The translations under genes were made by a program, and so were the position numbers. From assembly GCA_947345935.1 (NCBI GenBank), contig CAMZZN010000002.1, positions 1 through 64,000 of the forward strand: a stretch of 64,000 bases of DNA, read 5' to 3'. The notes below the pieces were generated by a model. The model was not told the origin of the DNA and ran no database searches. It saw nothing but the letters and a program-made list of their open reading frames with translations. This DNA is from an uncultured Ruminococcus sp. (GTDB lineage Bacteria > Bacillota > Clostridia > Oscillospirales > Ruminococcaceae). This document shows positions 12,326 through 34,576 of this stretch, in pieces (position 1 is the first letter of the stretch; every line of letters begins with the position of its first letter).

Positions 12326-12772
12326 TTACTTGCAGTTTTTAGATATAGCTTCGTAAAGCATCTGCGGATCAAGTCCACAAGTTTTATAGCCTTCCGCTAT
12401 TGTTCGTACATAGTACGGCGATGGGTGGTTATATGAAAATGTGGGATTTTCATTCATGATATAAACCATGCCGCTATACTGCTTGTCATTTACCTCCACA
12501 TCGATAGTCTCTTTGCGATACAGATGAGGATAGCCCTCATAAATATCCAGAGATTTCTCGTCGTTTGGGCATATCTTCCATACAAGTACCGGAACGCTGC
12601 CACCTTTTTCTTTTTCAATTGTCGCAACCGCAGAATCATATCTGCCGTAAAAACGCAGACGATAATCCTTTATTTCGCCAACCGCAACAGCAACAGCCGT
12701 TCTGCAGCGTCTTTTCATCTGAGCTACGTTCATATTGGAACCGTAGGCAATATAGAGCTTTTCGCGTTTCAT
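12326..12772 (-). CDS. Gamma-glutamylcyclotransferase-like (AIG2/GGCT fold) protein
   Basis: The protein opens with LYIAYGSNMNVAQMKRRC, the signature nucleotide-free loop of the GGCT fold, and contains LDIYEGYPHLYRKE with the likely catalytic glutamate in YEGYP. At 148 aa it is a complete single domain. Enzymes of this fold release gamma-glutamyl amines as 5-oxoproline. Its operon partner is an amidoligase, a pairing noted in comparative studies of ATP-dependent amide-forming enzymes, where the two are thought to attach and remove peptide or gamma-glutamyl groups. The substrate here is unknown. GGAGGTGATGCT precedes the ATG. Confidence 0.82.
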   Translation of the reverse strand: MKREKLYIAYGSNMNVAQMKRRCRTAVAVAVGEIKDYRLRFYGRYDSAVATIEKEKGGSVPVLVWKICPNDEKSLDIYEGYPHLYRKETIDVEVNDKQYSGMVYIMNENPTFSYNHPSPYYVRTIAEGYKTCGLDPQMLYEAISKNCK

Positions 12773-12786
12773 AGCATCACCTCCGA

Positions 12787-13014
12787 TTAATCGTCATCTA
12801 CATCATCGACGGATACAATATTTACATATTCGCCAATAATGCATAGTGCTTCATCGTAACTACCAGATGAGAAGACGCGGCTCTGCATTTCTTTTGCCTG
12901 TTCATTTTGGCCATTTCTTCTGAGCGTTCTGGACGCTATGCCTACAAGATTAAAGATGTTGCCGTCTGCGCCGATAAGTGGACAGTTTGGCTTTTTACGA
13001 GCATTATTATCCAT
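12787..13014 (-). CDS. Conserved element protein of unknown function (75 aa)
   Basis: The start is ATG 13014 behind AAGGAGG, which overlaps the end of the YubB-like gene by 8 bp; a longer frame upstream has no ribosome site. The product begins MDNNARKKPNCPLIGADGN, has a small helical core (FNLVGIASRTLRRNG, EQAKEMQSRV) and ends in an acidic tail (VDDVDDD). Small proteins of this kind recur in amidoligase operons on Firmicutes elements, but I cannot name a function. It could bind a partner through the acidic tail. Confidence 0.6.
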   Translation of the reverse strand: MDNNARKKPNCPLIGADGNIFNLVGIASRTLRRNGQNEQAKEMQSRVFSSGSYDEALCIIGEYVNIVSVDDVDDD

Positions 13015-13528
13015 TACGCAGTTCCTCCTTATCGATGTTGAAAATATCACTAACAAAATCCAATATATCTTCGGTATATTCGGGATAGTATTCATCATAC
13101 TGCTCGCCGCCGCGATATATTATTCTGCCACAGTCCGCACCGTAGTCCTCATTTGTCCACTCGTGGGTAATTTCTAAATCCGGATACATAGCAGACAGTT
13201 TGCGTATAACTATGTGTGGAGCTGCCCAAGCAGAGAGAAATCTAATAGTGCCAAATGTATATGAGCCGTAATCGGTTCCGTCATATCCATAGGCATTCCA
13301 TTTTGTTCCCCAGTTGTTAACGCTCCAGTCATACCAATTGTTCTTACCGTATTTACGGCGTTCAATAATGCCGAGATCTCCGCGATAGATATTATCCGGC
13401 ATAGGAACTACCTTATTAAAATCGATAGTACCTAAACCATATTTATCGTTTTTGACGGCCTCATGCATTTTTGCAACAATGTCCTTGTCGCCAACAATGG
13501 TAAGAACGTTCGTTACATGATTAGGCAT
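13007..13528 (-). CDS. YubB ferredoxin-like domain protein (DUF1281-type, 173 aa)
   Basis: The start is ATG 13528 behind GAAGGAGG. The protein begins MPNHVTNVLTIVG and contains IDFNKVVPMPDNI, the NNWGTKWNAYGYDG block and a C-terminal TFGTIRFLSAWAAPH segment, which together match the YubB/DUF1281 ferredoxin-like family found on plasmids and integrative elements. No iron-binding cysteines are present; the name refers only to the fold. It overlaps the genes on either side (7-8 bp) and so belongs to the amidoligase operon. Function is unknown. Confidence 0.75.
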   Translation of the reverse strand: MPNHVTNVLTIVGDKDIVAKMHEAVKNDKYGLGTIDFNKVVPMPDNIYRGDLGIIERRKYGKNNWYDWSVNNWGTKWNAYGYDGTDYGSYTFGTIRFLSAWAAPHIVIRKLSAMYPDLEITHEWTNEDYGADCGRIIYRGGEQYDEYYPEYTEDILDFVSDIFNIDKEELRNG

Positions 13529-14471
13529 CTTCTGTTCCTCCTTCGTTTTTAGGTCTGTGACTTCTGCAGTTTTCCTTTGATCCATAACGCCATGCTGCGT
13601 TACCGCTAAGATGCTCGTAGAGATGAGCGCGACAGCTCTTGAATTCTTCGCCTATAAAGCCGATTCTGTTGAGATAAACTCGCATAGCGAATTTTTCATT
13701 CTCCTCCTGAACCTTCTTGTATCTTGCACATTTCTGAGACAGTGCCTGATGATCAAGAGCTAAGGCAAATACTATATAAGCACGTACTTTACCGGCATGA
13801 AGGTCGCTGTTAAAGCCTCTAAGCTCAACAGTATGGTTACCATTGAAGAAGCTATGGAGATTGAGAAAATGGTATCTGCTATCGTGATAGTGATGCCATC
13901 TGCTTTCCGAGTAACCGGAATACCAGATATCCTCTATCTCTGCCATAGTTTTGGGCTTCTTCTGATTAATCTGCTCGACCAAGTATTCGTCCATTTTCTT
14001 GCAGTATCTCGCTCTACCCGGCTTTATTTGCAATGCCTTATAGAACAAATCATTTCGGCTTGCAACTAAATTGATAAAGTTTACGATACTGCGAGGAGTG
14101 TGCGGCGCACCATCCAGGTGAATATGTATGCCGCAAGTGCTGTTAGTAAAACCGCCAGCCTTTCTGAGAAGTCTTACCATATTTTGAAGAGTGTCAATAT
14201 CTTCGCGATATGTAAGAATAGGCGTTACGAGTTCAACTGCGTGCAGAGAAGAAGCAGAACTTCTTCGACCGTTCGACAAGTGCATACATTCAATACTCGA
14301 ATCGCTCATGACTTTCCATTTACGTCCGTCGGCAGCTTTGATCTGATAAGTATCATAGCCGTCGCTCAGATGCTCGGTTGTGCCATTTACGACTTTTGCA
14401 ACTATTGTCGAGGCCCTGTTGCGCGTTATGCCCGTAAATTCAATTTCTACGCCAAATTTGTTTGACAACAT
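13521..14471 (-). CDS. Putative amidoligase (316 aa)
   Basis: The start was placed at ATG 14471, 8 nt after GGAGG. The N-terminus has FGVEIEFTGITR, the conserved EIE block at the active site of the amidoligase (glutamine-synthetase-like COOH-NH2 ligase) family. TCGIHIHLDGAPHTPRS and the C-terminal RYHFLNLHSF, VELRGFNSDLHAGK blocks follow in the expected order. Such enzymes use ATP to join a carboxyl group to an amine and are predicted to modify peptides or small molecules. The pairing with a GGCT-like protein four genes on supports a reversible modification. Length is normal and all blocks are present, unlike the fragment at 3677-3970. Confidence 0.82.
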   Translation of the reverse strand: MLSNKFGVEIEFTGITRNRASTIVAKVVNGTTEHLSDGYDTYQIKAADGRKWKVMSDSSIECMHLSNGRRSSASSLHAVELVTPILTYREDIDTLQNMVRLLRKAGGFTNSTCGIHIHLDGAPHTPRSIVNFINLVASRNDLFYKALQIKPGRARYCKKMDEYLVEQINQKKPKTMAEIEDIWYSGYSESRWHHYHDSRYHFLNLHSFFNGNHTVELRGFNSDLHAGKVRAYIVFALALDHQALSQKCARYKKVQEENEKFAMRVYLNRIGFIGEEFKSCRAHLYEHLSGNAAWRYGSKENCRSHRPKNEGGTEDA

Positions 14472-14599
14472 TTCTCTCGCCTCCATTCGAGATGTGTGAA
14501 CGTGCGTCTTTTCTACTCGAAAAAGAGACCTGCGACGCACGCAGATATCTCACTGCGCACGTCGTCTGACCTATGTTCGACTATTGATTTTAATGTGCA

Positions 14600-15805: not shown

Positions 15806-16765
15806 TTAGTAAAGCGTACCTGGATCGCAGCCATTTACGATAATATCGTCAAGCTCGTCCATTGTTATTACGCGAAATAGTTTTGTTTGGTTTCTAAACT
15901 CGTTTTTAATCTTAGCCTCAAGCTTTTCCTTTCGCTTGATGTCGGGAACTATCCAGAGAGTTATTGGAAATATATTATTTGCCTTTTGCTCTCTGGAAGT
16001 CCTGTAATAGTAGTGATATCTTTGGCATTTATATATGACCGTTGCAGGAGATTCTGTGCTTAAATCCACTTCTATAAACCATCTGTCCTCGTACTCGCCG
16101 GACTGCGTAGCAATAAACAAATCAGGGTTTAGTGATATTCTTTTGCCTGAGTATATGTACTGCCGCCAGCACTCAGGTTCGAATTGGACTTCGGTTATAG
16201 ATAGGTCTTTAGTATTACGGCAAAGCTCCACGATGCGAACATAGCATTCTGCGACAGATAATGTGTGTCTCATAAATGCGTATGACGGTTCGATGAATCT
16301 CCTGCGCGGTTCGTCGAAGGCATCTTTAAGATTTATAAACCTCATTCCACCTTCAGTTAAATGCCATACATAGGAAGCAGATCCTGCTCTTACGCCTCCT
16401 ATTTTTCTTTCAAAGGAGCTTACGAGACCTGTGGCTCTGAGCCGCCTCATTGTTCTGGTCGTAGCAGCCCTAGCTGCCTTGATGGATTTTGAGTCGTAGA
16501 AGTGAAGTCTCTGAATTTGCCCCGTCATGAGATAACGACACCTGGAAAGCGAATCCAGAATCTCTTTGTCCTTAAGGCTAAGCGAGTCGTGCAATTGTTC
16601 CAGTCTTGACTGGCTGAGTCGTATTGCCATATACCTCGCCTCACTTGGTTTAAGTACCGTTGAAATACGGTAGTAGTCGTTTCCCTTATTGAATAGTTTT
16701 GCCAGTTTTCCGGCACTTGCGATAGTTTTGTATCGGTCGCGACGGTTCGGTCGATAAATCCTCAT
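15806..16765 (-). CDS. Replication-relaxation family protein (319 aa)
   Basis: A winged-helix region (SLKDKEILDSLSRCRYLMTGQIQRLHF) is followed by the conserved AARAATTRTMRRLRATGLV and VWHLTEGGMRFINL blocks and a C-terminal domain with WFIEVDLSTES. This matches the replication-relaxation family, thought to take part in rolling-circle replication or transfer initiation of integrative elements in Gram-positive bacteria. Its start overlaps the TraG-type ATPase stop by 4 bp (ATGA), so the two are coupled. It is the best candidate in the island for a mobilization or replication initiator. Confidence 0.75.
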   Translation of the reverse strand: MRIYRPNRRDRYKTIASAGKLAKLFNKGNDYYRISTVLKPSEARYMAIRLSQSRLEQLHDSLSLKDKEILDSLSRCRYLMTGQIQRLHFYDSKSIKAARAATTRTMRRLRATGLVSSFERKIGGVRAGSASYVWHLTEGGMRFINLKDAFDEPRRRFIEPSYAFMRHTLSVAECYVRIVELCRNTKDLSITEVQFEPECWRQYIYSGKRISLNPDLFIATQSGEYEDRWFIEVDLSTESPATVIYKCQRYHYYYRTSREQKANNIFPITLWIVPDIKRKEKLEAKIKNEFRNQTKLFRVITMDELDDIIVNGCDPGTLY

Positions 16766-18918
16766 TTTTTACGTCGCCCGATAGGTGTTGGAGCTGGTTC
16801 CGCTTCTGCTTGAGTCTCATCTTTCTCGAGGAGCTTGAGGAATTCCTCCTCGACTTCCTCAATCGGTCTGCCATATGTAGTTTGACTGAGCGCTCTGAGC
16901 TCGGCGGGATTTCTCAAGCTTGCCGGCGGCGGTAAAGTTTTACCATGTATCCATCCGGTACTCTTCCCATCAGACATGATATTTGTATAAATCTCATACC
17001 TCGGCAAAGTCATAAAGTCTAACGCTTCAAGCTCAGGAGCCATAGCAGCAACTTCTTTTGCGTCGGAGGAGTTAAGGCCGAATATAATCTTGTTCCTGGC
17101 ATTCGCATCAATTCCAGCTTTAAGCTCCGGTGGCAGCTGCGCTCTATACTGGTGCGCCATTGTAATACTTACGCCGAGACCTCGCGCCTGAGCTAATGCA
17201 TCTGCTAAATCTGTCGGCAGACTCAGGTAATCCTGAAGCTCGTCAATATAAAGCGAAACGATATGGCGCTTCTCAGGCGGTATATTCGCGCGAGAAAGCG
17301 TTAGTGTCCAGGTTAGGCCAACTATAAGGGAGCCAAGTAGCTTGGCGCTTTCTGCGCCGACTGTGCCCTTGTTAAGCGGCACCAGAACTATTTTCCGTTT
17401 GTAGAATAAATCCGTAAGCTGAAACTTTGGCTCAGCTTGCCCGAGAATAGCTCTTAGTCCAGGTCTATACAGGAATTGGCGTATCTTGTTAAGAACCGGC
17501 GCGATTTCTTGCTTCCGCTCACTATCGCGCATATTGTCGTAACCGTCCCAGAAAGGTTTCAGAGCAATTCTGTCGCGGATTCTATCTGTGAGACTATGCC
17601 TAAAGGCTTCGTCTGTCAGTAACTGCGGCAGCCACAGCAGCGAGGATCCTTTTACCTCCGCCAGCGTTAGTAAAGCTGCACTTAATACATCCTGACTTCG
17701 AATACCCCAATTCTCGGCAAATATCTCTTTAAATACCGCAAGTATTGCGTCTGCTATAAGCACGGGATTTCCGGGAAGTGATAATGGATTAAAGCCTACC
17801 GGACACGGATCCGATGGATCGATAACGACTACATCGTCATATCTGCTTTCCGGCAAGCGTTCTAAAATACTGTTAACAGGATCCGCTTTCGGATCAATTA
17901 CCAGTACACTTCTTCCGGCATATATATCCGAAAGAATAAGGTTTTGCATTGCAGTAGATTTGCCTGAACCTGTCGGGCCGAGAAGTATAGTATGTTCAAG
18001 CCCGTCTTTCGGGGAAATACTGAGCTTTTTACTATTAACGCCGTCTTGGCTCAATGCAAATGTTCTGTCGTTCATGCGATTAATCGGATCTCTGTACCAT
18101 AACGGCGGCGAAACAGACTTTGGGTGTAAACCTAATGTTCCCGGAAGCTCATCTTCGCCAATGGGCAGCATTAAGAATGATGCTGCTTCCTTTACGGATA
18201 GCCGCATAGGAAAATGCCACGGAACATGAGCGATATTGATATTCTGAGCCTTTTCGCTGTCGGTATATATTCTTACGCCCGCCGATTCTAATGTTCTGAG
18301 TGCGCTAAGAACTCCATTGATGCTCGCTCTTGCATATTCGCCACTTGCTCCTATACGAATAAGTGCCTGAAAGCAATGCTGTTCTGATTTTTCTCGCACA
18401 GATTTGCGCGCCTCGTTAGTAATCTGCTCCGTACTGCCAAATATGGCTTGAAGCCAGGATGCGTGCGGATCGGGAAATGATTTTGGAACCATTGTCGGCG
18501 CATAAGAGCCACCGAGAACGATTTGCAATACCGCACAATCATCTCCGCGAACATTTGCGAGTGCCGCAAGTCCTGCACGTATTGTGGACAACATCACTCC
18601 CGTATTTAAGGCAAGTGATGGTTTGCTTATAACTAGCTTTCTTGCAGTTCTAACCAACTGGCGCGTTTGCGCAGGGAGGGGATATATTGCTATATCCCCA
18701 TGAATTTTAATTGCTTCAGCAATCTTATTCATATTCCTACTTTCTGCGCCGATAATATGCTTAACATATCCTTTGCTGCTGCGTGATTCCCAAACAATCG
18801 CTCCTCGATTTTCGAGCGTAGCAAGATGTGTTAGCATTTCGATTACGTTATCTTCGCTGAATGGTCGCTGCCATACGACTTCGCGCCATTCAATACGCTC
18901 AATACGGTGCTTCGTCAT
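16762..18918 (-). CDS. TraG/HerA-type conjugative ATPase (718 aa)
   Basis: The C-terminal two thirds form a VirD4/HerA-like ATPase: Walker A GPTGSGKS near residue 315, LVIDPKADP, a Walker B region (LYIDELQDYL) and sensor sequences (MAHQYRAQLP). The N-terminal 280 residues form an unrecognised domain without obvious membrane spans, unlike classical VirD4. Coupling proteins of this kind bring element DNA to the transfer machinery. AGGAGG precedes the ATG. It is coupled to the replication-relaxation gene, and a small membrane protein upstream could anchor it. A HerA-like DNA-pumping role in defence is an alternative. Confidence 0.8.
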   Translation of the reverse strand: MTKHRIERIEWREVVWQRPFSEDNVIEMLTHLATLENRGAIVWESRSSKGYVKHIIGAESRNMNKIAEAIKIHGDIAIYPLPAQTRQLVRTARKLVISKPSLALNTGVMLSTIRAGLAALANVRGDDCAVLQIVLGGSYAPTMVPKSFPDPHASWLQAIFGSTEQITNEARKSVREKSEQHCFQALIRIGASGEYARASINGVLSALRTLESAGVRIYTDSEKAQNINIAHVPWHFPMRLSVKEAASFLMLPIGEDELPGTLGLHPKSVSPPLWYRDPINRMNDRTFALSQDGVNSKKLSISPKDGLEHTILLGPTGSGKSTAMQNLILSDIYAGRSVLVIDPKADPVNSILERLPESRYDDVVVIDPSDPCPVGFNPLSLPGNPVLIADAILAVFKEIFAENWGIRSQDVLSAALLTLAEVKGSSLLWLPQLLTDEAFRHSLTDRIRDRIALKPFWDGYDNMRDSERKQEIAPVLNKIRQFLYRPGLRAILGQAEPKFQLTDLFYKRKIVLVPLNKGTVGAESAKLLGSLIVGLTWTLTLSRANIPPEKRHIVSLYIDELQDYLSLPTDLADALAQARGLGVSITMAHQYRAQLPPELKAGIDANARNKIIFGLNSSDAKEVAAMAPELEALDFMTLPRYEIYTNIMSDGKSTGWIHGKTLPPPASLRNPAELRALSQTTYGRPIEEVEEEFLKLLEKDETQAEAEPAPTPIGRRKK

Positions 18919-19133: not shown

Positions 19134-19709
19134 TCAAGCCTCCTCATTATCGTCACCGACCTTTTTGCTGTACTTAGGCACAGGATAACCAGGAATCACA
19201 ATATCGGATTCAATCTGATTGCCCCATGCATCCCATCCTGGCTGACTGCGCCTAGCAAACAGTTCGAGATATGGCCCCGGCGAACAGCGCTCAATAATTG
19301 CGTACTGTTCTTCGGGTTTGTGCGAGTGATCCTGCAGCGGAGCAAACAACCAATTTGGCTGTGCCTTAAACTGTATAGGTGCTTTACCTCGTGTGCCGAA
19401 TAGGACTGTTTCACTTGCATTGCGAAGATAGTTTCCAAGTCCGAGTCGAGGCTTAATCCAGGTAAAAATGGATCTATACTCAAATCCCCACGCCTTCATG
19501 ACTTCGATTCCTTGTGGGATTAAGCCATTTGTTACCCAAAGCCATAAATGCGCATTATCTTCACATAAGTCAGCAACTGGCATATTTTTAATATCTTCAA
19601 GTGTCATTAGGTCATAATGACTGGCCGCGCCGCGCTTGCCTTGCTGATTTATATTCCAAGGCGGATCAGCCATAATGGTTGAGTATTTTTTCTTGTTGTC
19701 TTCAATCAA
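19134..19709 (-). CDS. MT-A70 family adenine methyltransferase (191 aa)
   Basis: DPPW (residues 15-18, in MADPPWNI) is the catalytic motif of MT-A70-type N6-adenine methyltransferases. LWLWVTNGLIPQGIEVMKAWGF and the C-terminal PGPYLELFARR complete the fold, and the length is normal for the prokaryotic single-domain form. Such enzymes methylate adenine in DNA, probably to protect the island or mark it for its own replication. The start is a TTG at 19709 behind AAAGGATG. It opens a new block after a 176-nt gap and precedes the membrane protein and the ATPase. Confidence 0.85.
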   Translation of the reverse strand: MIEDNKKKYSTIMADPPWNINQQGKRGAASHYDLMTLEDIKNMPVADLCEDNAHLWLWVTNGLIPQGIEVMKAWGFEYRSIFTWIKPRLGLGNYLRNASETVLFGTRGKAPIQFKAQPNWLFAPLQDHSHKPEEQYAIIERCSPGPYLELFARRSQPGWDAWGNQIESDIVIPGYPVPKYSKKVGDDNEEA

Positions 19710-19885: not shown

Positions 19886-21337
19886 TTAGTTGATTTTCTC
19901 GAGAACAGGTTCGTCGATAGTGCCGTTAATACGATAAATATCCCCGTCATTTGGTTCGATTTCCGTAAACGTCTCGACTAACTGTCCCTCAATTACTGCT
20001 TTGAAAGATCTTACGGTTAAGCTATCAGCTTCGGTTACGCGGTCTATGATTCCTTGCATAACCTCCTTAGATATGAATCCGATGCGAATGCCATATTCGA
20101 AGCCTGTCTCAATTATCTGCTTGGCGAGTATTCTAGCCTTAGCTTCAGAGCTTAAAGGCTTATACTCCACGAAGCAATGAAAACGGCTTGCGATTTCTGC
20201 GAGCGTACCATACTTTATAAACTCACGGCGCGCTTTTTCGGTGTTCTTATAAATCTTTTGTGTCAGATTGTCCTCGGGTTTTTCCTGAATTGTACTTTCC
20301 TTATAACCTATTTCGACTGCACCATCTTTAAAGTCGATATTCTCAACGGTATCTGATATGGAAAAGCCGATAGGACGCTTCTTATCATCTACGCCTTCTC
20401 CGGAAAGCACATAATTGCTCGTGAAGAAGAATATGCAGTGCTTAAAATCGTACTCCCGGCTTCCGTCGGGGAGTCTTGAGCGTGATGCACATCTTCCTTC
20501 GTCCAGTATTGCCATGAAAGTCTTGAGGACTTGCGGATGTGCTTTGTCAAGCTCGTCGAAAATAAAAATCGTATATGGATTGTCTGCTACGGCATCAAAA
20601 ACAGGCTTATCCTCGTAGCCGACATATCCGGGCGGTGAGCCTAAGAGTCGATAAACGGTATGTCCTTCAGTAAAGGTGTTTAGATCTGTCCATACCGTCG
20701 CATAATTATGGCCTGATAATCTCGAAAGAATATCTGCCAAGCCTTTTGCTGTTTCGGATTTTCCTACGCCAGGTGTACCGAAAGCCAAAATAGATAACGG
20801 TTTTTTCGGATTCTTTTTTCTAAGAAATCTGTCAACCTGAAAGCTTACCGTTTCAACAGCTTCGTCCTGACCTATAATGACTTTTTTAAGTTCATTATTG
20901 ATTATTTCGAAGTTTAAGGTCGGCTGCGACTCTGAAGGTGGTGTTTGGATATTATTCCAATCGGAAATATCCCCATTTTCCTCATCGGTTTCCTCTGAAT
21001 CCCCAGAGCCTTGAGGCTCCGGAGATTCTTCGGTGAATTTTTCGCACTGACTAACCATTTCTGCCCAATCACGTCCAACAATGTTCTTATACTTAAACAG
21101 CTTATACATAGTTGGATTATGTCCGCGATAACGAATATCGTCATAACAATACAAGGTGTATCCGTTATCACTTTTTCCGATGCTTATAGTTGCTTCTTTA
21201 GGCTCGCAAGTATTCGGGAGTTCGCAGCCTGGGAATTCATATACTCCTGGACTAGCTTCATCAACAAAAATCTTAAGCTCCAAATAATCTGCTGCAGAAG
21301 CACACGAAAAGTCAGTTAGCTTCATTTTTGTGTTCAT
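19886..21337 (-). CDS. Clp/Hsp100-type AAA+ ATPase with a new N-terminal domain (483 aa)
   Basis: Residues 150-470 match the second AAA+ module of ClpA/ClpB/ClpC: Walker A GTPGVGKS (187-194), pore loop GYVG in GSPPGYVGYE (237-240), Walker B FDELDKAHP (261-264) and sensor TSN (306-308). At 323-325 the tripeptide IGF lies where ClpA (IGL) and ClpC (VGF) carry the ClpP-docking loop. The first 140 residues, with an acidic low-complexity linker (102-135), are not Clp-like and might bind the substrate or tag. The start overlaps the E1 stop (ATGA). An unfoldase acting on tagged proteins, perhaps with host ClpP, is the inference. Confidence 0.85.
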   Translation of the reverse strand: MNTKMKLTDFSCASAADYLELKIFVDEASPGVYEFPGCELPNTCEPKEATISIGKSDNGYTLYCYDDIRYRGHNPTMYKLFKYKNIVGRDWAEMVSQCEKFTEESPEPQGSGDSEETDEENGDISDWNNIQTPPSESQPTLNFEIINNELKKVIIGQDEAVETVSFQVDRFLRKKNPKKPLSILAFGTPGVGKSETAKGLADILSRLSGHNYATVWTDLNTFTEGHTVYRLLGSPPGYVGYEDKPVFDAVADNPYTIFIFDELDKAHPQVLKTFMAILDEGRCASRSRLPDGSREYDFKHCIFFFTSNYVLSGEGVDDKKRPIGFSISDTVENIDFKDGAVEIGYKESTIQEKPEDNLTQKIYKNTEKARREFIKYGTLAEIASRFHCFVEYKPLSSEAKARILAKQIIETGFEYGIRIGFISKEVMQGIIDRVTEADSLTVRSFKAVIEGQLVETFTEIEPNDGDIYRINGTIDEPVLEKIN

Positions 21338-22764
21338 ATGAGAGCCCTCCTGGTATCCTTAATCTTGTCCTTGCTCTTAAGAAGATTGCCTTCTCCGCCG
21401 CAAAGAGGACAGCTTTCATTGGGCTCTTGAGGTATCCAGACTGCACCGTCGCAGAAGGAGTATTCCTTATCGAAGGCTTCGTCAAAGATATCGTTCTTGA
21501 TTACGTTATTAAATGGCGCAATCTTGATTTGGATAAAGTTTCTGTCAGCGACACGATCGAGCAATCTGCCGTATCGGCTGGTCTTGCTTCCGTACTGAAG
21601 CAACATAAGTGCAACTAATCCACATAATGCATTAACTCTCTGAGTAGAGAATATCGTTGAGCATGAGCTAGTAACATTGTTCTTGAAGCCGCGCTTATAT
21701 GCCTGGTATCTTGACTCCATCATGCATCTTGGGCAACTCGGAGTTACGCCGGGGTAAGCGAAACATACTTCGGCAGCATCGCCATTCATATACATCTGTG
21801 CCGCCAAAAATGCAGTGCCAAGATTAACGGAAAGAGCCGCAGCCCTAGCCTGAGCATAAAAATCGTCAGTAAAAGCAGCTATAAGATAGTTTTCCGGATG
21901 CTTAATAATACCTTTTCCAACTAAAGAAATAAACTCCTCATCGGAAATGTTGTTGTCAAACCGGCGCTGAACAGCCTTAACTTTGGCCGACGGATTGATA
22001 TCAAGAATCTTTTCTTTCGCGACTTCAACTTTACCTCTTCCAAGGTTCGATATCTCAGCAAACTGATTGGAGATATTTTCATCCTTGTACCAGTCGTGAT
22101 CAAAAAGAGTAAAATTCGACGCGCCACATCTAGCCATATCAATACTGAACATTTGCGATCCGCCGCAACCTAAGACAACAATATGCTTGTTTTTCATCAT
22201 TTCCAAGTCTATGGCCTGATTTATTCTGTCATATTTTCGGTACGTAATGCGTTCGTGCGTTGCTTTGAGCGAAGACGGAAGTTCCGTATCATAATCTTCG
22301 ATTACTTCGAAGGGGATCAGCTCCACCTTCTTATGAGAATTTCTCGGATATACTCTGTAGAACCTCAAATCCAAGCTATTATTAGTCCTTCTTTGACCGA
22401 TGACTACGTCAAAAAACGCAGAATCGTATGCATCGATTATGTCTTGAGCATATTCAATATCTGCGCCCGAACATACCGGGTAACCATCCGGATGAGTATG
22501 TGCGCCGCCCGTGATGTACTTATCGCTAGCTATTGCTTTGCCAATTTTAGGGCTCATTACAGCAGTATCGGGTGAATATGCCGCTGCGGAAGTGTTTGCG
22601 CTAAAATCATAGATAAAATCTATAACTTTAACATTTTGGCCATTAACCTCAGAAATAAGATAACCGCCTTGTTCAGGTTTCTGCGAACCGAGCGTTGCTA
22701 CAATCTTTTCGTAAGCTTCGCGCTTTAGTCTGATTACGGCCTTCATTTTTCTTAATGTAAACAT
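21334..22764 (-). CDS. JAB protease-E1 fusion (476 aa)
   Basis: Residues 1-130 are a JAB/JAMM metalloprotease: E31, H89 and H91 (HTHPDG), then S99 and D102, spaced exactly as in H-x-H-x7-S-x2-D. Residues 190-390 are a ThiF/E1 adenylation domain: GCGGSQ (199-204), FDHDWYKDENISNQF, zinc ligands CPRC (344-347) and CPLC (452-455), and Cys368 in the position of the E1 catalytic cysteine. Such fusions process and activate ubiquitin-like proteins in known bacterial systems. Here no beta-grasp ubiquitin gene is adjacent; a tandem-repeat peptide is. The gene overlaps its upstream neighbour (TGATG) and the AAA+ gene (ATGA). All active-site residues are present. Confidence 0.87.
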   Translation of the reverse strand: MFTLRKMKAVIRLKREAYEKIVATLGSQKPEQGGYLISEVNGQNVKVIDFIYDFSANTSAAAYSPDTAVMSPKIGKAIASDKYITGGAHTHPDGYPVCSGADIEYAQDIIDAYDSAFFDVVIGQRRTNNSLDLRFYRVYPRNSHKKVELIPFEVIEDYDTELPSSLKATHERITYRKYDRINQAIDLEMMKNKHIVVLGCGGSQMFSIDMARCGASNFTLFDHDWYKDENISNQFAEISNLGRGKVEVAKEKILDINPSAKVKAVQRRFDNNISDEEFISLVGKGIIKHPENYLIAAFTDDFYAQARAAALSVNLGTAFLAAQMYMNGDAAEVCFAYPGVTPSCPRCMMESRYQAYKRGFKNNVTSSCSTIFSTQRVNALCGLVALMLLQYGSKTSRYGRLLDRVADRNFIQIKIAPFNNVIKNDIFDEAFDKEYSFCDGAVWIPQEPNESCPLCGGEGNLLKSKDKIKDTRRALI

Positions 22765-23099
22765 CAGTATCCCTCCTTATCTTGCAGCTCTCTGCAGATT
22801 TCGTCGAAGGGACGACCAGTATTTAACATTATTGATGTAGAATCAGCCCACAACGAAGCTACAGCTTGAGCTTGCTCGAACGTACTTATTGTGCCGCCCC
22901 AGCAGATATAGTCATAATCCTCTCCGGCATCATGAAGCCTGTGAGTTGCATGAAAATCTCTTCTGAGACGAAGACCATAGCGAATATGATTAATGATATA
23001 TATTCGCCATGTACCTAGATCCGGGTAGTAACAGAAGAGAAAATCAAATCGCATTCTTCCGTCACAGCTCAGATACCACATACGAATGAACTGTTCCAT
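22764..23099 (-). CDS. 111-aa protein, possible minimal E2-like partner
   Basis: The family is not recognised. The first half looks like a beta meander (RFDFLFCYYPDLGTWRIYII); then comes HATHRLHDAGEDYDYICWGG and a helix (TFEQAQAVASLWADST). The order His, then IC-W, then a helix resembles the HPN to catalytic Cys to helix layout of ubiquitin-conjugating enzymes, but the similarity is weak and the protein is shorter than a UBC fold. GAAAGGAGGG precedes the ATG. It lies between the repeat peptide and the JAB-E1 gene and overlaps the latter, so it works with them. Alternatively it is a non-catalytic adaptor. Confidence 0.5.
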   Translation of the reverse strand: MEQFIRMWYLSCDGRMRFDFLFCYYPDLGTWRIYIINHIRYGLRLRRDFHATHRLHDAGEDYDYICWGGTISTFEQAQAVASLWADSTSIMLNTGRPFDEICRELQDKEGY

Positions 23100-23115
23100 G
23101 CGGAACCCTCCTTTC

Positions 23116-23144
23116 GGAGGACGCCAAGAAGACGTCCTCCTTGG
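23116..23144 (-). promoter_or_regulatory. Two overlapping alternative hairpins between peptide and enzyme genes
   Basis: GGAGGACG (23116-23123) pairs with CGTCCTCC (23133-23140), an 8-bp stem. CCAAG (124-128) can instead pair with CTTGG (140-144), which would break the first stem. There is no T-tract. The element lies in the 66-nt gap between the repeat-peptide gene and the 111-aa gene, and could set how many transcripts or ribosomes pass on. Confidence 0.45.
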
Positions 23145-23165
23145 CTAAGTTATTTGAGCTTCCGA

Positions 23166-23327
23166 TTATCTGAAAGTTCCAGGAGGAAGCTCACCCTGTC
23201 TGCCGCCCTTAAATACGCCAGGTGGCAGCTCGCCTTGTCTACCGCCTCTGAACGTACCGGGCGGCAGTTCTCCTTGACGTCCACCGAAAAAAGTGCCGTC
23301 TGGGAGCCAAAAAGTAAGTCTTTTCAT
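23166..23327 (-). CDS. 53-aa tandem-repeat peptide with Gly-Gly spacers
   Basis: ATG 23327 lies 8-9 nt behind GAAAGGAG. The product is four units: MKRLTFWLPDGTFFGG, then RQGELPPGTFRGG, RQGELPPGVFKGG and RQGELPPGTFR. Each of the first three ends in Gly-Gly preceded by an aromatic and, in two, a basic residue, as in ubiquitin tails (R-G-G). The codons of the three full units differ mostly at synonymous sites, which shows selection on the protein. It is too short for a beta-grasp fold. A JAB protease could release the units and the E1 activate the glycines; equally it could be a peptide modified in another way. I know no named family. Confidence 0.8.
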   Translation of the reverse strand: MKRLTFWLPDGTFFGGRQGELPPGTFRGGRQGELPPGVFKGGRQGELPPGTFR

Positions 23328-23386
23328 GGCTTTTACTCCTTTCGTAAGATTTTGCCAAAAATACCAGAGCAAAAGAAAAAGATTGC

Positions 23387-23415
23387 TTGAATAATTATTG
23401 TGTTTATGGTATAAT
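23387..23415 (+). promoter_or_regulatory. Promoter of the STAND-like gene
   Basis: TTGAAT at 23387-23392, a 17-nt spacer and TATAAT at 23410-23415 form a good sigma-A promoter. It lies in the divergent region shared with the repeat-peptide gene. Transcription should start near 23422, which excludes the TTG codon at 23398 as the start of the coding region. Confidence 0.7.
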
Positions 23416-26229: not shown

Positions 26230-29200
26230 TTATTTCATTACCTTGTCTAGAAGTGTTTTGTAACTGTCTATCACATCGTACACTACATTTTCCGAGCTTA
26301 TTGTTTTGAAGTGCTCTCTTGCGCAGTGAATTTTAGCATCTTCGATCATACGCAACTGCATTGATCTCATTGCTCCTTTTGTTTCTGCTATGAAATAAAT
26401 GTGTTTTACGCTTCCTTCATAGAAGGCGATAGCCCAGTCAGGATTATACTTGCCTACTGGAGTTGAAATATAGAACCCATCTGGAAGTTTAACATAAACC
26501 GCAACATTAGTATCTGTGTCAAGCTGTTCGGCAAATTTTTGCTCATTCGAGGAATCGTACACTATATGGTCATATAGATGCTTCTTGGCCTTCATTGCGT
26601 TTGTGCCAAGTTTGCCCTTAATTGTAGGCTCAGTGAATATATCTGTTTCATAGTGCTCATCAAGCGCATTATATGTAATGTGTTGAATAATTGCGGTTGC
26701 TTTTTCGTCATTGATAAGTTCGCTGGCTTTAATAATAAAGTCTTCTGGATTATCTTTGAATTGATCAAACACTGTAGGTTGAATGCCTTGTAGTATTCGG
26801 ACAATCGCTTTTCGTGTAAGACCGGTTTCGTCTACGAGTTTCCCCACGAGGTCATATTTAACGTTACTGCTTGCAGAGATTGTTGCTTTATAATGTTCGG
26901 ATTTGTCACGCGTAAATGCTTCGCCAGATTCAAGTTCTTCTTTTGATGCTATTTGAGACATCGAGCCACTTTCAACTCTGAAATATATTTTAGGAACGCG
27001 AAGTTTAGCGTCTAGCGCAATAATAGAGTTATTTATAAGCTCCTCAGTATCAAAATCAACAACATAGACTGTTTTAGCGTTTATTCGAGACCAGAGCTCC
27101 TTAAATTCTGGCATCGCAAGCTTATCCTCATCAACTTGGAGTTCGACATTATTGCTGCGAGCGTTTTCGGGCTGCATAATTCTAGGATCATAGATAGAAT
27201 CAATAATAGCAATAACGTCTTCTGCGGAATCAGAGACCTCTTCGGCTATTTCAATTTCGCCATTGGCTTTATCCTCATGATACTTATCCGTTAACTGTCC
27301 CTTCTTTACATAGCCGTTTTCAATAAGGCTTTCATAAATTGAAGTTGCAATATCTTCGTCAATGACTTGTTCATTTCCGTCGGCATCTTTGATTACTTTA
27401 TCGATAAACAGCTCGGCAGTAACTTTCTTAGGTCTATCCGCAACGGCTTCAGCAATTTCTGATTGCAATCCTTTCGCAAAGCTATCATAGCTTTCGCTAG
27501 CAATAACGGTAAGTATATTGATGTTATGAACATCAGCGCCAAGAACAGTACTATCCATACGATCGCCATCTTGGTTTACGCATAGACGTAGGCCACGTCC
27601 AACTTCCTGGCGTTTCCTTACATCGCTTGAGCTTTGCTTTAAGGTGCAGATTTGGAATACATTAGGATTGTCCCAACCTTCACGAAGTGCTGAGTGAGAG
27701 AAAATGAAACGCACTGGAGAACGTTTTGGATCGCAATCTAGCAGCAGTTCCTTATTCTTCATAATCAAATCATATGCGTCAATATCATCAGATGTCTTTT
27801 CTTTCTTGTCGCCAAGTTTACCATCAATCATATGACCGCTCTTTTTATCAATAGAGAAGTAGCCCGCATGCGTATCTGCTGCGCTTATGGATTTAAGGTA
27901 TTTAATATAATCCGCCTCGTCAAGTCCTTCCTGTAAGTTTGAGACTATATCTTCATACTCTTCTTCGAACATCTGCGCAAAAATACCATTTGCTTGTTGT
28001 CCATTTTCGTATAGCCTATAATGATCAACTTCATCAATGAAGAATAGTGATAGGACTTTAATTCCTTTATAGAATAGCTGTCGCTCGCGCTCAATATGAG
28101 AGAGAATGGTTTCCCTAATCTGTATTCTTCTGAGCTGTTCTTCGCTAACCTTTCCAATAACATCTCCGGCGTATATCTTGATACCATTAAGAAATTCAAC
28201 GGAATCATCACGTCCATCAATATGCTTTACTATGAAGTTATTCTCATATTCAGGTATTTCGCCCGAATTTGGATAAAGATTATATCCTTCATTTACGGTC
28301 TTAGTAACCTTGCGAATTCCAGTTGCGCCTTTGAAATCAAATTGTATAGTTGCAGTAGGATTAGCTTTAGAAAGGTTTATGCTCTCAAGATAAACATAGC
28401 CTTCTGTTGCTGTAGTTCCTGATTCGGTAATGCCTTTTACGGCAATCTTCTTAACCAAGCGCTTATTGTAGGCTTCCATTGCGTCGAGGCGATAAATCAT
28501 ATTGTAGATACTATCGCTCTTATGAGTAGCAGAATAACGCAAAGTCATAAGAGGGTTAAATTGTTTGAGATTCTCTTTCGTCTGCTTTCCTTCAACGGAC
28601 TGTGGCTCATCGATAATAACAATAGGATTAGTTTTTGCTATGATATCAATCGGTCGACGCGAACGGAATTCGTCAAGCTCCATGTAGATACGTCGAGCAT
28701 CCTTTCCTTTTGCATTGAATGCCTGGGAATTAATAATCATGACGTTAATGGAGCTATCCGATGCAAAGCGGTCAATTTCAGTAAGTTGTGCTGAGTTATA
28801 TATAAAGAAACGGATCTTTTTACCATATTCCTCAGCGAAATGCTCCTGAGTTACTTCAAAAGATTTATATACGCCTTCACGAATAGCGATGCTCGGTACA
28901 ACTACGATAAATTTGCTCCAGCCGTAATGCTTATTGAGCTCGAACATGGTTTTAATGTAGGTATATGTCTTACCGACGCCGGTTTCCATTTCGATGGTAA
29001 GGTTATACTTGCCCTCAAGCTTTGGAGAAGGTGCTAACTGATTTGCACGCTGAATCTTTTGAATATGCTCCAAAATGACACCATCGCTGAGCTCAGGAAC
29101 TATTTTATGATTGCTCCATCCGGTATAATCCAATTCTTCTGTTAAGGTCTGCTGATAGCCGGTACCGCGATCCATCATGTATGTGGGTGTTAGGTATGGC

Positions 29201-29274
29201 TGCCCAGCAAATACATCGCAGACCGCCTTAGCTGCATCTGCCTGAAATTTCTGATGTTTAAACTGTAGTTTCAT
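26230..29274 (-). CDS. res: Type III restriction enzyme, Res subunit (1014 aa)
   Basis: The N-terminal half is a superfamily 2 helicase: Walker A METGVGKT (96-103), DEPQ (222-225), SATHKSDSIYNM, and a later EVGRGLRLCVN motif VI. The C-terminus has a PD-(D/E)xK nuclease region (YNPDWAIAFYE, then IAETKG). This is the full architecture of type III Res proteins, which translocate on DNA from an unmodified site and cut near a second one. It is the last gene of the operon and follows Mod by 10 bp. All motifs are intact, so restriction should be active in complex with Mod. Confidence 0.93.
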   Translation of the reverse strand: MKLQFKHQKFQADAAKAVCDVFAGQPYLTPTYMMDRGTGYQQTLTEELDYTGWSNHKIVPELSDGVILEHIQKIQRANQLAPSPKLEGKYNLTIEMETGVGKTYTYIKTMFELNKHYGWSKFIVVVPSIAIREGVYKSFEVTQEHFAEEYGKKIRFFIYNSAQLTEIDRFASDSSINVMIINSQAFNAKGKDARRIYMELDEFRSRRPIDIIAKTNPIVIIDEPQSVEGKQTKENLKQFNPLMTLRYSATHKSDSIYNMIYRLDAMEAYNKRLVKKIAVKGITESGTTATEGYVYLESINLSKANPTATIQFDFKGATGIRKVTKTVNEGYNLYPNSGEIPEYENNFIVKHIDGRDDSVEFLNGIKIYAGDVIGKVSEEQLRRIQIRETILSHIERERQLFYKGIKVLSLFFIDEVDHYRLYENGQQANGIFAQMFEEEYEDIVSNLQEGLDEADYIKYLKSISAADTHAGYFSIDKKSGHMIDGKLGDKKEKTSDDIDAYDLIMKNKELLLDCDPKRSPVRFIFSHSALREGWDNPNVFQICTLKQSSSDVRKRQEVGRGLRLCVNQDGDRMDSTVLGADVHNINILTVIASESYDSFAKGLQSEIAEAVADRPKKVTAELFIDKVIKDADGNEQVIDEDIATSIYESLIENGYVKKGQLTDKYHEDKANGEIEIAEEVSDSAEDVIAIIDSIYDPRIMQPENARSNNVELQVDEDKLAMPEFKELWSRINAKTVYVVDFDTEELINNSIIALDAKLRVPKIYFRVESGSMSQIASKEELESGEAFTRDKSEHYKATISASSNVKYDLVGKLVDETGLTRKAIVRILQGIQPTVFDQFKDNPEDFIIKASELINDEKATAIIQHITYNALDEHYETDIFTEPTIKGKLGTNAMKAKKHLYDHIVYDSSNEQKFAEQLDTDTNVAVYVKLPDGFYISTPVGKYNPDWAIAFYEGSVKHIYFIAETKGAMRSMQLRMIEDAKIHCAREHFKTISSENVVYDVIDSYKTLLDKVMK

Positions 29275-29284
29275 ACCCCACTCC

Positions 29285-31201
29285 TTAAATGACTTTAACT
29301 CTTGTATCGGGTGCTAACATCTTGAATATTTCGCCTACGTTAATCTTAGATGGGCTATCTTCAAAGCTTGAATCCCTAAATACTGCACGAATCGGCTGCT
29401 TTTTGGCGATGAATTTAATTACGCTTTCAGGAACATTCTCGTCAAAGCAAGCAATAAGATCGCCGTCATTATAGTTATGAACGGAGCATCCATCGATAGT
29501 TTCGGATGAATATGGAAGAGAGAGCGGAAGACCCCAGTCGAGAAGGCAACCAAAGAGCAGATCCATATCTGTACGATCTTCCTTAATGTTTGACTCCATT
29601 AAAGAAAGGAGGCTCTGATTGTACTGATCGACGCCATAATATACATCATTCATATTGCTTTCGTCAAGCTTAAAAACGCGGAAGCCTACATCGAGCTTTT
29701 GAGCGATCATCGGTTTTTCGTTTTTTATTATATTTCCAGCACGACGTATGCGTTCTCTACCGATATCAGATATGGTCTTTAGATTCTCTTTTACAACGTC
29801 ACATTTTTCTGGCAGTTGAACCATTATATAGTGAATATTGTTTTCGTTTTGCATATTATCAAGCATTACGGAATGGGCTGTTGTGGCCGAACCTGAGAAA
29901 AAATCCATAACGATTTCGTTGTTTAGATTCAATCTAGATATTAGATAGTTGATAAGAGCAGTTGGCTTGGAATAGCTAAATAAACCACCTAATCCCATGC
30001 TTTCAAGCATTTTTGCTGCTTGGGTACTAGAGAATTCTTCAATTATACCCATTGGACGCTGTGTTCTTTCAATTGGATTGCCATCATTGTCGCAATTCAT
30101 ATACTGCTTCGTATAAACTGTCCAAATACCTTTTGAATCTTTTTTTATTTCAATAAATCCTCTGTTTTTATTTCTTTCATATTTCTCTTTCGACCAGCGC
30201 CAGCAAGCCTTACGTCCATTATTATTGTCTGCTGGCATTACAGTAGTACCATCTGGAGCAATGATTGGATAGTCCAAAGATGCTGAATACTGTATTGATC
30301 CCATGCCTAGTTTCTGAAGATAAAACTTTCCGCGCTCGCTTTCGTATTGGTCAGTACCTTTGTATCTTTCGGCGTTACTGATTGGAACTCCTTTAATTTC
30401 CAGTTCATCTATGTTTTTGGCGTAGCAAATTATATGTTCGTGCTTGATTCTAAACAACTTAGTGTCTGAGCTACCGCCGCCCTCTTTGTTAGCCCAAATT
30501 AAATCTGCGACAAAATTAGCAGATCCAAAAACATCATCGCAAATCTTCTTTAAATTAGCTGCTTCAATATCACTAATACTAATAAAAATACAGCCATCAT
30601 CCTTGAGTATGTTTCTAGCCAAAAGCAGTCTAGAATAAATCATGGAACACCAATCCGAATGATATCTTCCAGCAGTAACTGAATTTTCTCTTTTAAAATT
30701 TACATTTCCTTCGTCATCAAAATAACCCACACCGTCATCGTAATCCTCGCTTTCCATAATGAAAGAGTCAGGATACACAAAATCGTGTCCGGTATTATAT
30801 GGTGGATCAATATAAATCATCTTTACTTTGCCGAGGTAACTTTCCTGCAAAAGTTTAAGAACTTCAAGGTTATCGCCCTCGATATAGAGATTTTCCGTAT
30901 TATCCCAATCAACACTTTCTTCCTTGCACGGGCGAAGTGTTTTGCGAATTGGCTTGTTTGCCTCGACAATTGCAGCCTTCTTGCCAACCCATGTAAATTC
31001 ATAGGCTTCGTCACCATCTAGTGCTTGTTCGGAAAGCATCTGACGGAGCATATCAAAGTTGACGACCTTTTTGTAAACTTTCTTTTCATCTGTACTCTTT
31101 TCCTCGTCCAACGCTTCTGTTACGCAGTTAGGAAATAAAGCTTCGATTTTCTCAACATTCTGGGCGGCAATATTAGCCGTTTCCATTTTCATCTTTTCCA
31201 T
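29285..31201 (-). CDS. mod: Type III DNA methyltransferase, Mod subunit (638 aa)
   Basis: DPPYNTG (132-138) is the catalytic motif IV, and FSGSATTAHSVM is the S-adenosylmethionine-binding motif I, in the order of beta-class N6-adenine methyltransferases. The region between (about 200-430) is the target-recognition domain, including SRLLLARNIL and WANKEGGGSSDTK. Mod recognises the asymmetric site and methylates one strand; with Res it forms the restriction complex. It overlaps the upstream DUF4365 gene by one base and is followed by Res after 10 bp. The recognition sequence cannot be read from the protein. Confidence 0.93.
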   Translation of the reverse strand: MEKMKMETANIAAQNVEKIEALFPNCVTEALDEEKSTDEKKVYKKVVNFDMLRQMLSEQALDGDEAYEFTWVGKKAAIVEANKPIRKTLRPCKEESVDWDNTENLYIEGDNLEVLKLLQESYLGKVKMIYIDPPYNTGHDFVYPDSFIMESEDYDDGVGYFDDEGNVNFKRENSVTAGRYHSDWCSMIYSRLLLARNILKDDGCIFISISDIEAANLKKICDDVFGSANFVADLIWANKEGGGSSDTKLFRIKHEHIICYAKNIDELEIKGVPISNAERYKGTDQYESERGKFYLQKLGMGSIQYSASLDYPIIAPDGTTVMPADNNNGRKACWRWSKEKYERNKNRGFIEIKKDSKGIWTVYTKQYMNCDNDGNPIERTQRPMGIIEEFSSTQAAKMLESMGLGGLFSYSKPTALINYLISRLNLNNEIVMDFFSGSATTAHSVMLDNMQNENNIHYIMVQLPEKCDVVKENLKTISDIGRERIRRAGNIIKNEKPMIAQKLDVGFRVFKLDESNMNDVYYGVDQYNQSLLSLMESNIKEDRTDMDLLFGCLLDWGLPLSLPYSSETIDGCSVHNYNDGDLIACFDENVPESVIKFIAKKQPIRAVFRDSSFEDSPSKINVGEIFKMLAPDTRVKVI

Positions 31202-33018: not shown

Positions 33019-33902
33019 TATTTACCTCCCATTTGCTTATACTCACAAATTTGAAATATAGCGGCTTTTAGTACCTGAAGACAGATTAATGCAGTGTGTT
33101 TATCGGGGTAAAAATTTGTAACCATCTGTGAATATGGATGAATATAGTTTCTAAAATCGCGCAATACATGGCTAAATTTCTTTACATCTTGCTTTAATAT
33201 TCCAATTTCAGATGCTACATCAATAAAGTTATTTAAGGTCCATTCAGGAAATTTTCTAACCTTACTGCTATTAGCGTCTTTTGGGGCACAGCTTGCTTTA
33301 TTAAATAATGCTGGATATGACGATGCAACTCCCAAAAGAACGCCTTCTAAAATGCTGCCGATAAGAAAAATAGAGGCTAATGGAGCATCATTTTTTACGC
33401 ATGATTCTGCTTCATCTAAACGCGATCTGATAATCTCCTTAATGTTTGTGTCTAATCCAAGGAGATCAAGATTAACATCGAATGCAGTCTTCAAGAATTG
33501 CATTTCGTCTATTTCGGTAGAATCTTTTTCGTCCGAATCAATTATTACTTTGTCCAATTTGGCAAATGAAATCTCATCATTATTCCTAATGACTTTCCAT
33601 TTGTCAAAAGCCAGATATTGATTAAAGCGGAGGATAAGGGCATCAAGTTCTGAAATTCTACCTATATAATTTACTACAGCAAAAGTTTGGCGTATGCACT
33701 TGTCGAGCTCGGGTGTGCCGTTTATCCGCTGAAGCCTATCATCTGTATATATCCATCTTGATGGGAAACCTTGTCCATATGTATCGTTAAAACCTAACGC
33801 GTTGAAAAATGACACAAGTTTCGGGCCACTTCTATATTCCGGAGTTCCATCTCCGTTTATTATTACACGCAATTCTTCAAGGGTACGACTGCTTAATTGC
33901 AC
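33018..33902 (-). CDS. HEPN-like protein of the R-M operon (294 aa)
   Basis: The C-terminal half is helical and contains LRDFRNYIHPYSQ, where R-x6-H fits the R-x4-6-H signature of HEPN ribonuclease domains. The helix ASIFLIGSILEGVLLGVASS precedes it. The N-terminal half (SSRTLEELRVIIN, SFFNALGFNDTYG) resembles sequences seen in abortive-infection proteins with this C-terminus. One-base and 10-base overlaps tie it to the genes on both sides. An RNA-cutting effector that acts if restriction fails would fit, but the call rests on a short motif. Confidence 0.55.
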   Translation of the reverse strand: MQLSSRTLEELRVIINGDGTPEYRSGPKLVSFFNALGFNDTYGQGFPSRWIYTDDRLQRINGTPELDKCIRQTFAVVNYIGRISELDALILRFNQYLAFDKWKVIRNNDEISFAKLDKVIIDSDEKDSTEIDEMQFLKTAFDVNLDLLGLDTNIKEIIRSRLDEAESCVKNDAPLASIFLIGSILEGVLLGVASSYPALFNKASCAPKDANSSKVRKFPEWTLNNFIDVASEIGILKQDVKKFSHVLRDFRNYIHPYSQMVTNFYPDKHTALICLQVLKAAIFQICEYKQMGGK

Positions 33903-34567: not shown

Positions 34568-34576
34568 AACACCGCC

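Follow-up and report, generated by a model that had tools for sequence, protein, structure and literature searches.

The locus described here lies in a window of 64,000 nucleotides (nt), the whole stretch of DNA that was analysed, from an uncultured Ruminococcus sp. (assembly GCA_947345935.1, contig CAMZZN010000002.1, positions 1 to 64,000). The minus strand of this window carries, in gene order, a 53-aa Gly-Gly (GG) repeat peptide, a 111-aa protein, a JAB-E1 fusion and a Clp-type AAA+ protein, a set that a sequence-only reading had put forward as a candidate peptide-tagging system. All the open reading frames (ORFs) were confirmed as described there, with their order and overlaps: the 111-aa, JAB-E1 and AAA+ genes overlap (TGATG, ATGA), and the peptide gene stands apart, 66 nt 5' of the 111-aa gene. 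The results support that reading in part, and we tentatively interpret the four genes as a mobile-element-borne protein-modification module of ubiquitin-like logic, in which a short peptide would replace the beta-grasp protein. The features of the module are the following.

23336..23342, minus strand: Shine-Dalgarno-like sequence AAAGGAG, 8 nt 5' of the peptide ATG; a similar site precedes the peptide gene in 7/7 complete loci
23166..23327, minus strand: repeat peptide, 53 aa; ORF with a Shine-Dalgarno site, counterparts in six other complete loci and purifying selection
23100..23165, minus strand: hairpin(s) from the peptide stop to the 111-aa gene, with a CCTCC able to pair with the Shine-Dalgarno sequence of that gene
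22764..23099, minus strand: 111-aa protein, possible E2-like carrier; ORF with invariant His53 and Cys66 in 8/8 homologues
21334..22764, minus strand: fusion of JAB (N-terminal) to E1/ThiF (C-terminal), 476 aa; assigned from Pfam and residues
19886..21337, minus strand: AAA+ of the single-ring Clp type, 483 aa, whose N-terminal domain is specific to the family; AAA_2, GYVG pore loop and IGF loop

The module was compared over seven complete loci (the window, L032, L033, L034, L046, L047 and L048) and two that are cut by contig ends (L050 and L084). A scan of genome contigs yielded L032 and L033, scans of viral contigs yielded L034 and L084 (cut at one end), and a profile of the 111-aa protein run over 396 genomes of the family matched five of them: the window's own, G624 (L046, L047), G758 (L048), G688 (L050) and G780, the last of which was rejected. 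The JAB-E1 proteins of three complete loci are 72-73% identical to that of the window and those of the other three 32-39%. Down to an identity of 32%, a short peptide gene lies immediately 5' of the 111-aa gene in all seven complete loci, each time with an internal GG; the sequence-only reading had named homologous loci without the peptide or its Gly-Gly as counter-evidence, and none of the seven is such a locus.

The window peptide consists of MKRLTFWLPDGTFFGG-RQGELPPGTFRGG-RQGELPPGVFKGG-RQGELPPGTFR (53 aa), with units of 11-16 aa. Peptide length ranges from 27 to 72 aa across the complete loci, and the counterparts read MKR-F/L-TYWLPN-G/D-TFCGG-RQGELPPGTFRGG-RQGELPPGTFR in L032 and L033, MKRHTYWLPDGTFRGG-RQGELPPGTFR in L034, MRKLSFLPVGIFNGG-REGQELPSGVFC in L046 and MKKRDDIISRVNAGSKGG-SSESQDTDFTRSLPPGTFRNS in L047; that of L048 has 72 aa, with units RQGDLDGGTWCGG. 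Counting the N-terminal one, there are 2-4 units in six loci. An internal GG is found at one to three unit boundaries in each complete locus and a C-terminal GG in none, a layout that looks like that of a precursor cut after GG; the GG-ended products of such cutting would have 13-18 residues in six loci and up to 33 in L048. The description of the units as ending in R-G-G or K-G-G is correct for two of those in the window, but the first ends in F-G-G and the last is without GG. A C-terminal LxxGx[FW] motif is also present in the cut locus L084, and a Pfam scan of the window peptide gave no match.

The repeat units evolve under purifying selection. With the N-terminal units set aside, the window, L032, L033 and L034 supply eight units, all of which were used, and their ratio of non-synonymous to synonymous rates is 0.09 (28 non-independent pairs, with 140 synonymous differences against 36 non-synonymous ones); the N-terminal unit (16 codons) gives a less clear ratio of 0.28, with 23 synonymous and 25 non-synonymous differences, likewise from non-independent pairs. 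Nor is the repeat due to chance, a degenerate pattern for G-E-L-P-P-G-x-F having 3 matches in the window and 0 in 100 shuffles. A pattern search starting from the peptide, blind to peptides of the L046 and L047 types, returned 14 matches in 10 of 377 family genomes. Six of these, in two genomes that both carry the module (G000 and G758), fall in peptide genes; the other eight were rejected as chance matches, as their reading frames contain no repeat units and no module protein was detected nearby by tblastn with the rows of JAB-E1 and of the 111-aa family. Six of the seven loci have a hairpin after the peptide stop and ahead of the 111-aa gene (z -2.85 in the window and -2.98 to -4.32 in five others), none being found in L048 (z +0.76). 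The main hairpin of the window begins about 20 nt past the peptide stop, and its location between the peptide and the next gene suggests that the two are unequally expressed.

The JAB-E1 fusion matches Pfam ThiF over residues 187-388 (E=5e-15) and Prok-JAB with E=1e-4, just below the cut-off (22.6 vs 25 bits). The JAB residues E31, H89, H91, S99 and D102 are invariant in all complete loci, as are G199, G201, K245 and D300 of the E1 domain and both zinc CxxC pairs; every residue named in the sequence-only reading is present in the window, although its proposed catalytic cysteine, Cys368, turned out not to be conserved in the family and its GCGGSQ loop to be atypical. Sequences from the PDB matched by the E1 domain include MccB. 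In a tree of 25 E1 rows, which leaves out Cap2, the eight members of the family form one clade (support 98/95), separate from ThiF/TcdA-like E1s, from those of type VII secretion system (T7SS) loci and from type 6e E1s, the latter represented by a single row on a long branch. Another E1 tree groups together the E1s of two ESX/T7SS-like loci in which E1 is a separate protein (L085, 7283-10074, and L093, 584-1732); L085 also has genes labelled by eye as JAB and a small E2-like ORF.

The AAA+ protein matches Pfam AAA_2 (E=4e-26). Walker motifs and a Y[VI]G pore loop are present in all eight loci that hold the region (YVG in seven, GYIGY in L046), and eight of nine loci have an [IL]GF tripeptide, which HMMER aligns with the VGF of ClpC/MecB and which we take to be the ClpP-docking loop. 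Two matches to CLP_protease exceed the cut-off in the host genome, one of them strong (280 bits). The 111-aa domain (probability 94.7) and the AAA+ N-terminal domain (95.8) each have a stand-alone relative in a further locus (L086, 6071-8539), where the two genes are neighbours, suggesting that the two work together. This 111-aa relative has a hydrophobic N-terminus, and the genes beside the pair, at the contig end, were named by eye as tubulin-like/TIR-like and RyR-like.

The His53/Cys66 pattern of the 111-aa family recalls, at the level of sequence, an E2 active site. No relevant match to the protein was obtained in Pfam, PADLOC, NCBIfam or PDB sequences, a Ski-oncogene PDB match (E 0.45) being taken as chance, and the family shows no ubiquitin-like (Ubl) or Prok-E2_E match in Pfam. 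Its comparison by hhalign with the E2_E part of a type 6e plasmid locus (L096) gave a probability of 0.06%. The C-termini of the eight homologues read ...DKEGY/F, ...HSYQ, ...LRR, ...VIEL or ...VIDF, none of them GG. As the sequence-only reading had held, no beta-grasp gene is visible: Pfam finds none in the four module genes, ten larger neighbours and nine small ORFs of the mobile element. A separate operon on a Bradyrhizobium plasmid (L095, 4038-10408) combines JAB, a small E2-like ORF, E1, dsDNA nuclease and TIR genes, and the small ORF, labelled by eye, contains H-A-M-H-x-L...I-C-H-W.

The module is rare. Among 394 genomes of the order, four were matched, of which two were rejected and one holds a stand-alone relative of the 111-aa domain, leaving the window's own copy as the sole module; searches of genera matched 1/16, 1/4 and 1/11 genomes, each the already known one. 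The P0002 query matched 316/398 genomes of the phylum, the best match apart from its own full-length copy being partial, at 52 bits, as expected for ThiF/TcdA-like E1s. Across the class, model A5 matched 171/391 genomes at 1e-15; the best of the 170 matches outside its own genome, in G1463 (L085), belongs to the T7SS-like E1/JAB locus mentioned above and was rejected as a module member, and the ORFs listed around weak A2/A6 matches in G780, G1077 and G580 (L049, L087, L088) include no module genes. In plasmid and phage collections, queries with JAB-E1 gave partial matches only, with no record in which one place covers 80% of the query (one of these searches covering the best 8 of 104 records and three regions), and neither the 111-aa family nor the AAA+ N-domain relative had a match.

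In the window, the module is located inside an integrative element with genes for tandem serine recombinases, Replic_Relax, a T4CP/HerA ATPase, MT-A70, an amidoligase and a cyclotransferase. The features closest to the module are listed below.

15806..18918, minus strand: Replic_Relax and T4CP/HerA-like ATPase of the host mobile element, given as context
19134..19709, minus strand: MT-A70 methyltransferase adjoining the module; part of the element core and not of the module, since it also occurs in the module-less L101
23575..26175, plus strand: divergent gene of STAND (NB-ARC-like) type, coding for 866 aa when read from its ATG at 23575, with an upstream TTG at 23398 as a possible start

When viral contigs were searched for T4CP, four loci emerged: L101, L102 and the contigs of L034 and L084. 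Of these, L102 begins at a contig end and was left out of the cargo comparison. L101 is a related element (T4CP 62% identical) with no module in 17.3 kb; a core function of the module in the mobile element was therefore rejected, and the module is taken to be optional cargo. The module lies in a defence island. The Hachiman pair HamA/HamB is found beside the serine recombinases at 5133-8667 of the window (PADLOC E 4e-111 and 4e-292), and in the region beyond the STAND gene (26230-37855) three uncharacterised genes separate a type III restriction-modification pair from a Snf2-HKD helicase. The element core (12326-14540) contains Amidoligase_2 and gamma-glutamyl cyclotransferase-like genes, with counterparts identified by eye in the module-less L101; these might give the element a second activity that forms peptide bonds.

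The divergent gene is a likely functional partner of the module. In the window, L032 and L033 its product is a STAND protein; in L034 and L047 the products are smaller and different. Both sets have an N-terminal domain in common, for which hhalign gives a probability of 80.5 and a pairwise E of 1.3e-5, and none of the remaining 20 comparisons exceeds 1.23.

From gene content, conservation, selection, motifs and context we infer each chemical step of the following pathway, as well as its role in defence. The peptide would be made in excess of the enzymes, as the hairpin before the next gene suggests, and JAB would cut it after Gly-Gly, so that one to three peptides ending in GG come free of the tail, which itself never has GG at its end. 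The E1 domain would then adenylate the GG end, and the 111-aa protein, with its invariant His53/Cys66, might take over the peptide as a small E2-like carrier, a role assigned to it because the E1 cysteine is not universal. Once the peptide had been joined to target proteins, the AAA+ N-terminal domain would recognise the conjugate and AAA+ would unfold it into host ClpP; JAB could also act as a remover of tags, and the divergent STAND or adaptor protein could be either an infection sensor or a regulated target. It seems probable that the module serves in defence against phages or mobile elements. The full scheme, with an E1 that conjugates short, unfolded, tandem-encoded GG peptides, a fused JAB that matures and removes them and a Clp-type unfoldase that passes the conjugates to host ClpP in the conflict of mobile elements with phages, is put forward with rather more reserve than the general interpretation given at the outset. 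Since two of the window units end in R-G-G and K-G-G, trypsin would be expected to leave on tagged proteins the Lys-epsilon-Gly-Gly remnant that is detected by standard ubiquitin proteomics. If the scheme is true, E1-dependent protein tagging needs no beta-grasp protein, and E1 chemistry would be tied directly to Clp proteases in a self-contained 'peptide-ubiquitin'-Clp pathway, providing a new logic in bacterial immunity and a minimal, engineerable tag.

Several observations weigh against this scheme. Cys368 is kept in only five of the seven complete loci (Gly in L047, Asn in L048) and the usual Arg of the E1 NRQ motif is absent from all seven (Asn or Thr; N233 in the window), so that a classical E1 trans-thiolation cascade is unsupported for the family as a whole; moreover, the GCGGSQ nucleotide loop is atypical and the glycine loop variable across the family. 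Regarding the carrier, comparison of the 111-aa protein with the E2-like ORF of L095 gave a non-significant hhalign probability of 1.1%, with a score above those of 10/10 shuffles. The repeat unit is gone in L047, where only GG and a C-terminal LPPGTFR-NS are left, and the GG-ended product of this locus is without the repeat motif. The tail motif LxxGx[FW] is better conserved than any tag sequence, and the functional part could therefore be the tail and not the GG product. L050 (1-1060) holds the end of an AAA+ gene inside which the contig begins, a 13-N gap and a 111-aa homologue, in reversed order. Its partial AAA+ is without the IGF loop, and neither a peptide-like ORF nor JAB-E1 was found in 9 kb of this cut and gapped locus, which could reflect a variant system or else a broken assembly. 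Finally, the divergent protein of L046 is a different STAND without the common N-terminal domain, and L048 is found in another gene context.

The chief rival is a ThiF-type peptide modification of the microcin or ribosomally synthesized and post-translationally modified peptide (RiPP) kind, in which the peptide would be a precursor whose C-terminus is activated by the ThiF-like E1 (to a cyclic, amidated or nucleotide-linked form) and trimmed by JAB, the product being a small molecule. RiPP operons run from the precursor through a hairpin to the enzyme genes, and a tandem-core precursor followed by a hairpin would suit that arrangement. MccB is among the PDB-sequence matches of the E1. That E1-like enzymes act on short peptides is indeed known (MccB; PMC12250964, in part), but the main text of that review of ThiF-like RiPP enzymes contains no words starting with JAB, JAMM or AAA. 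Furthermore, neither the four module genes nor the ten larger neighbours scanned include a transporter or immunity gene, a Clp-type unfoldase with a ClpP-type loop would be of no evident use, and the STAND-type neighbours indicate an intracellular role, all of which make this explanation unlikely. Slightly less likely still is the second rival, a conventional Ubl in disguise, with the 111-aa protein (through a hidden beta-grasp fold) or a host Ubl as modifier and the peptide in an accessory role, for example as an inhibitor, a mimic of the substrate or a means of controlling JAB. Sequence-only comparisons assign no fold to the 111-aa protein, L050 holds a 111-aa homologue with no visible peptide, albeit in a cut and gapped contig, and beta-grasp proteins are included in E1/JAB operon types 6d and 6e (PMC1779556, in part); however, none of the eight 111-aa homologues ends in GG, and Pfam finds no Ubl match.

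Two further explanations were considered. The small ORF might be a leader-peptide attenuator, whose translation serves solely to regulate the genes that follow, by way of Pro-Pro-Gly (PPG) stalling and the hairpin that pairs with the Shine-Dalgarno sequence. PPG stalls ribosomes, and it is present in the units of the window and of L032-L034 and at the tail of L047, with the hairpin in place in six of seven loci. Nevertheless, L046 and L048 lack PPG and L048 the hairpin as well, the main hairpin of the window begins some 20 nt after the stop, and the number of units varies while their residues, GG included, stay under purifying selection, so that we consider attenuation improbable. A role in cell-cell signalling among carriers of the element, modelled on arbitrium- or Phr-like systems and with the STAND neighbour as receptor, would account for a mobile element that encodes a tandem short peptide next to a large protein resembling a regulator, yet it leaves the E1 and AAA+ unexplained, and no exporter was seen among the 14 proteins scanned, signal sequences being judged by eye; it is the most improbable of the explanations considered.

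To our knowledge, every known ubiquitin-like conjugation system uses a beta-grasp protein. The available parts of PMC1779556 and PMC11354881 are in line with a beta-grasp modifier in such systems, and the titles and abstract openings among the literature matches listed describe no system in which E1 and JAB go with a short repeat peptide and an AAA+ of the Clp type. The closest known kind are the JAB-E1/poly-ubiquitin operons of type 6e (Iyer et al. 2006), which, according to the consulted part of PMC1779556, carry a JAB-E1 fusion with tandem beta-grasp repeats. As in the module, JAB is fused N-terminally to E1, the modifier is a tandem repeat and a small partner protein is present (PMC1779556, in part), and a type 6e operon is likewise found on mobile DNA, namely the plasmid of L096. 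In contrast, the type 6e repeat units are beta-grasp domains of 70-75 aa (PMC1779556, in part), as opposed to the peptides of 11-16 aa in the window, and type 6e has an inactive E2/RWD-like domain, the L096 control showing both Prok-E2_E and Multi_ubiq. Membership of type 6e fails on the beta-grasp repeats, no Pfam match to Multi_ubiq being found in the module, and sequence comparisons detected no E2/RWD partner; in addition, the four genes include an AAA+ instead of a metal-binding gene, and the sole 6e E1 in the tree falls outside the module's clade, on its long branch.

E1 and JAB also occur together in bacterial immunity loci in type II of the cyclic-oligonucleotide-based anti-phage signalling system (CBASS; Cap2 E1-E2 and Cap3 JAB; L121, L122) and in Bil (BilABCD; PMC11354881, in part). 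The module differs from both in that JAB and E1 are one protein and in the presence of a short peptide and an AAA+; no CD-NTase, as in CBASS type II, was found among the module genes and ten neighbours, and the two-domain beta-grasp BilA of Bil is not seen in the module. With microcin C and ThiF-like RiPP enzymes, which adenylate a short ribosomal peptide in E1-like fashion (PMC12250964, in part), the module has in common a short precursor-type peptide beside a ThiF-like enzyme, but it adds JAB, a Clp-type AAA+ and the 111-aa protein, and shows no exporter in the 14 proteins scanned. The AAA+ core, GYVG pore loop and VGF/IGF loop are common to its AAA+ and to the Clp ATPases ClpC, ClpA and ClpB, from which it departs in having a single ring and an N-terminal domain of its own, found as a stand-alone protein in L086. 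The Pup-proteasome and SsrA-ClpXP pathways combine a short unfolded tag with an AAA+ unfoldase, as is proposed here for the module; Pup, however, uses a glutamine-synthetase-like ligase and SsrA uses tmRNA, whereas the module has E1 and JAB.

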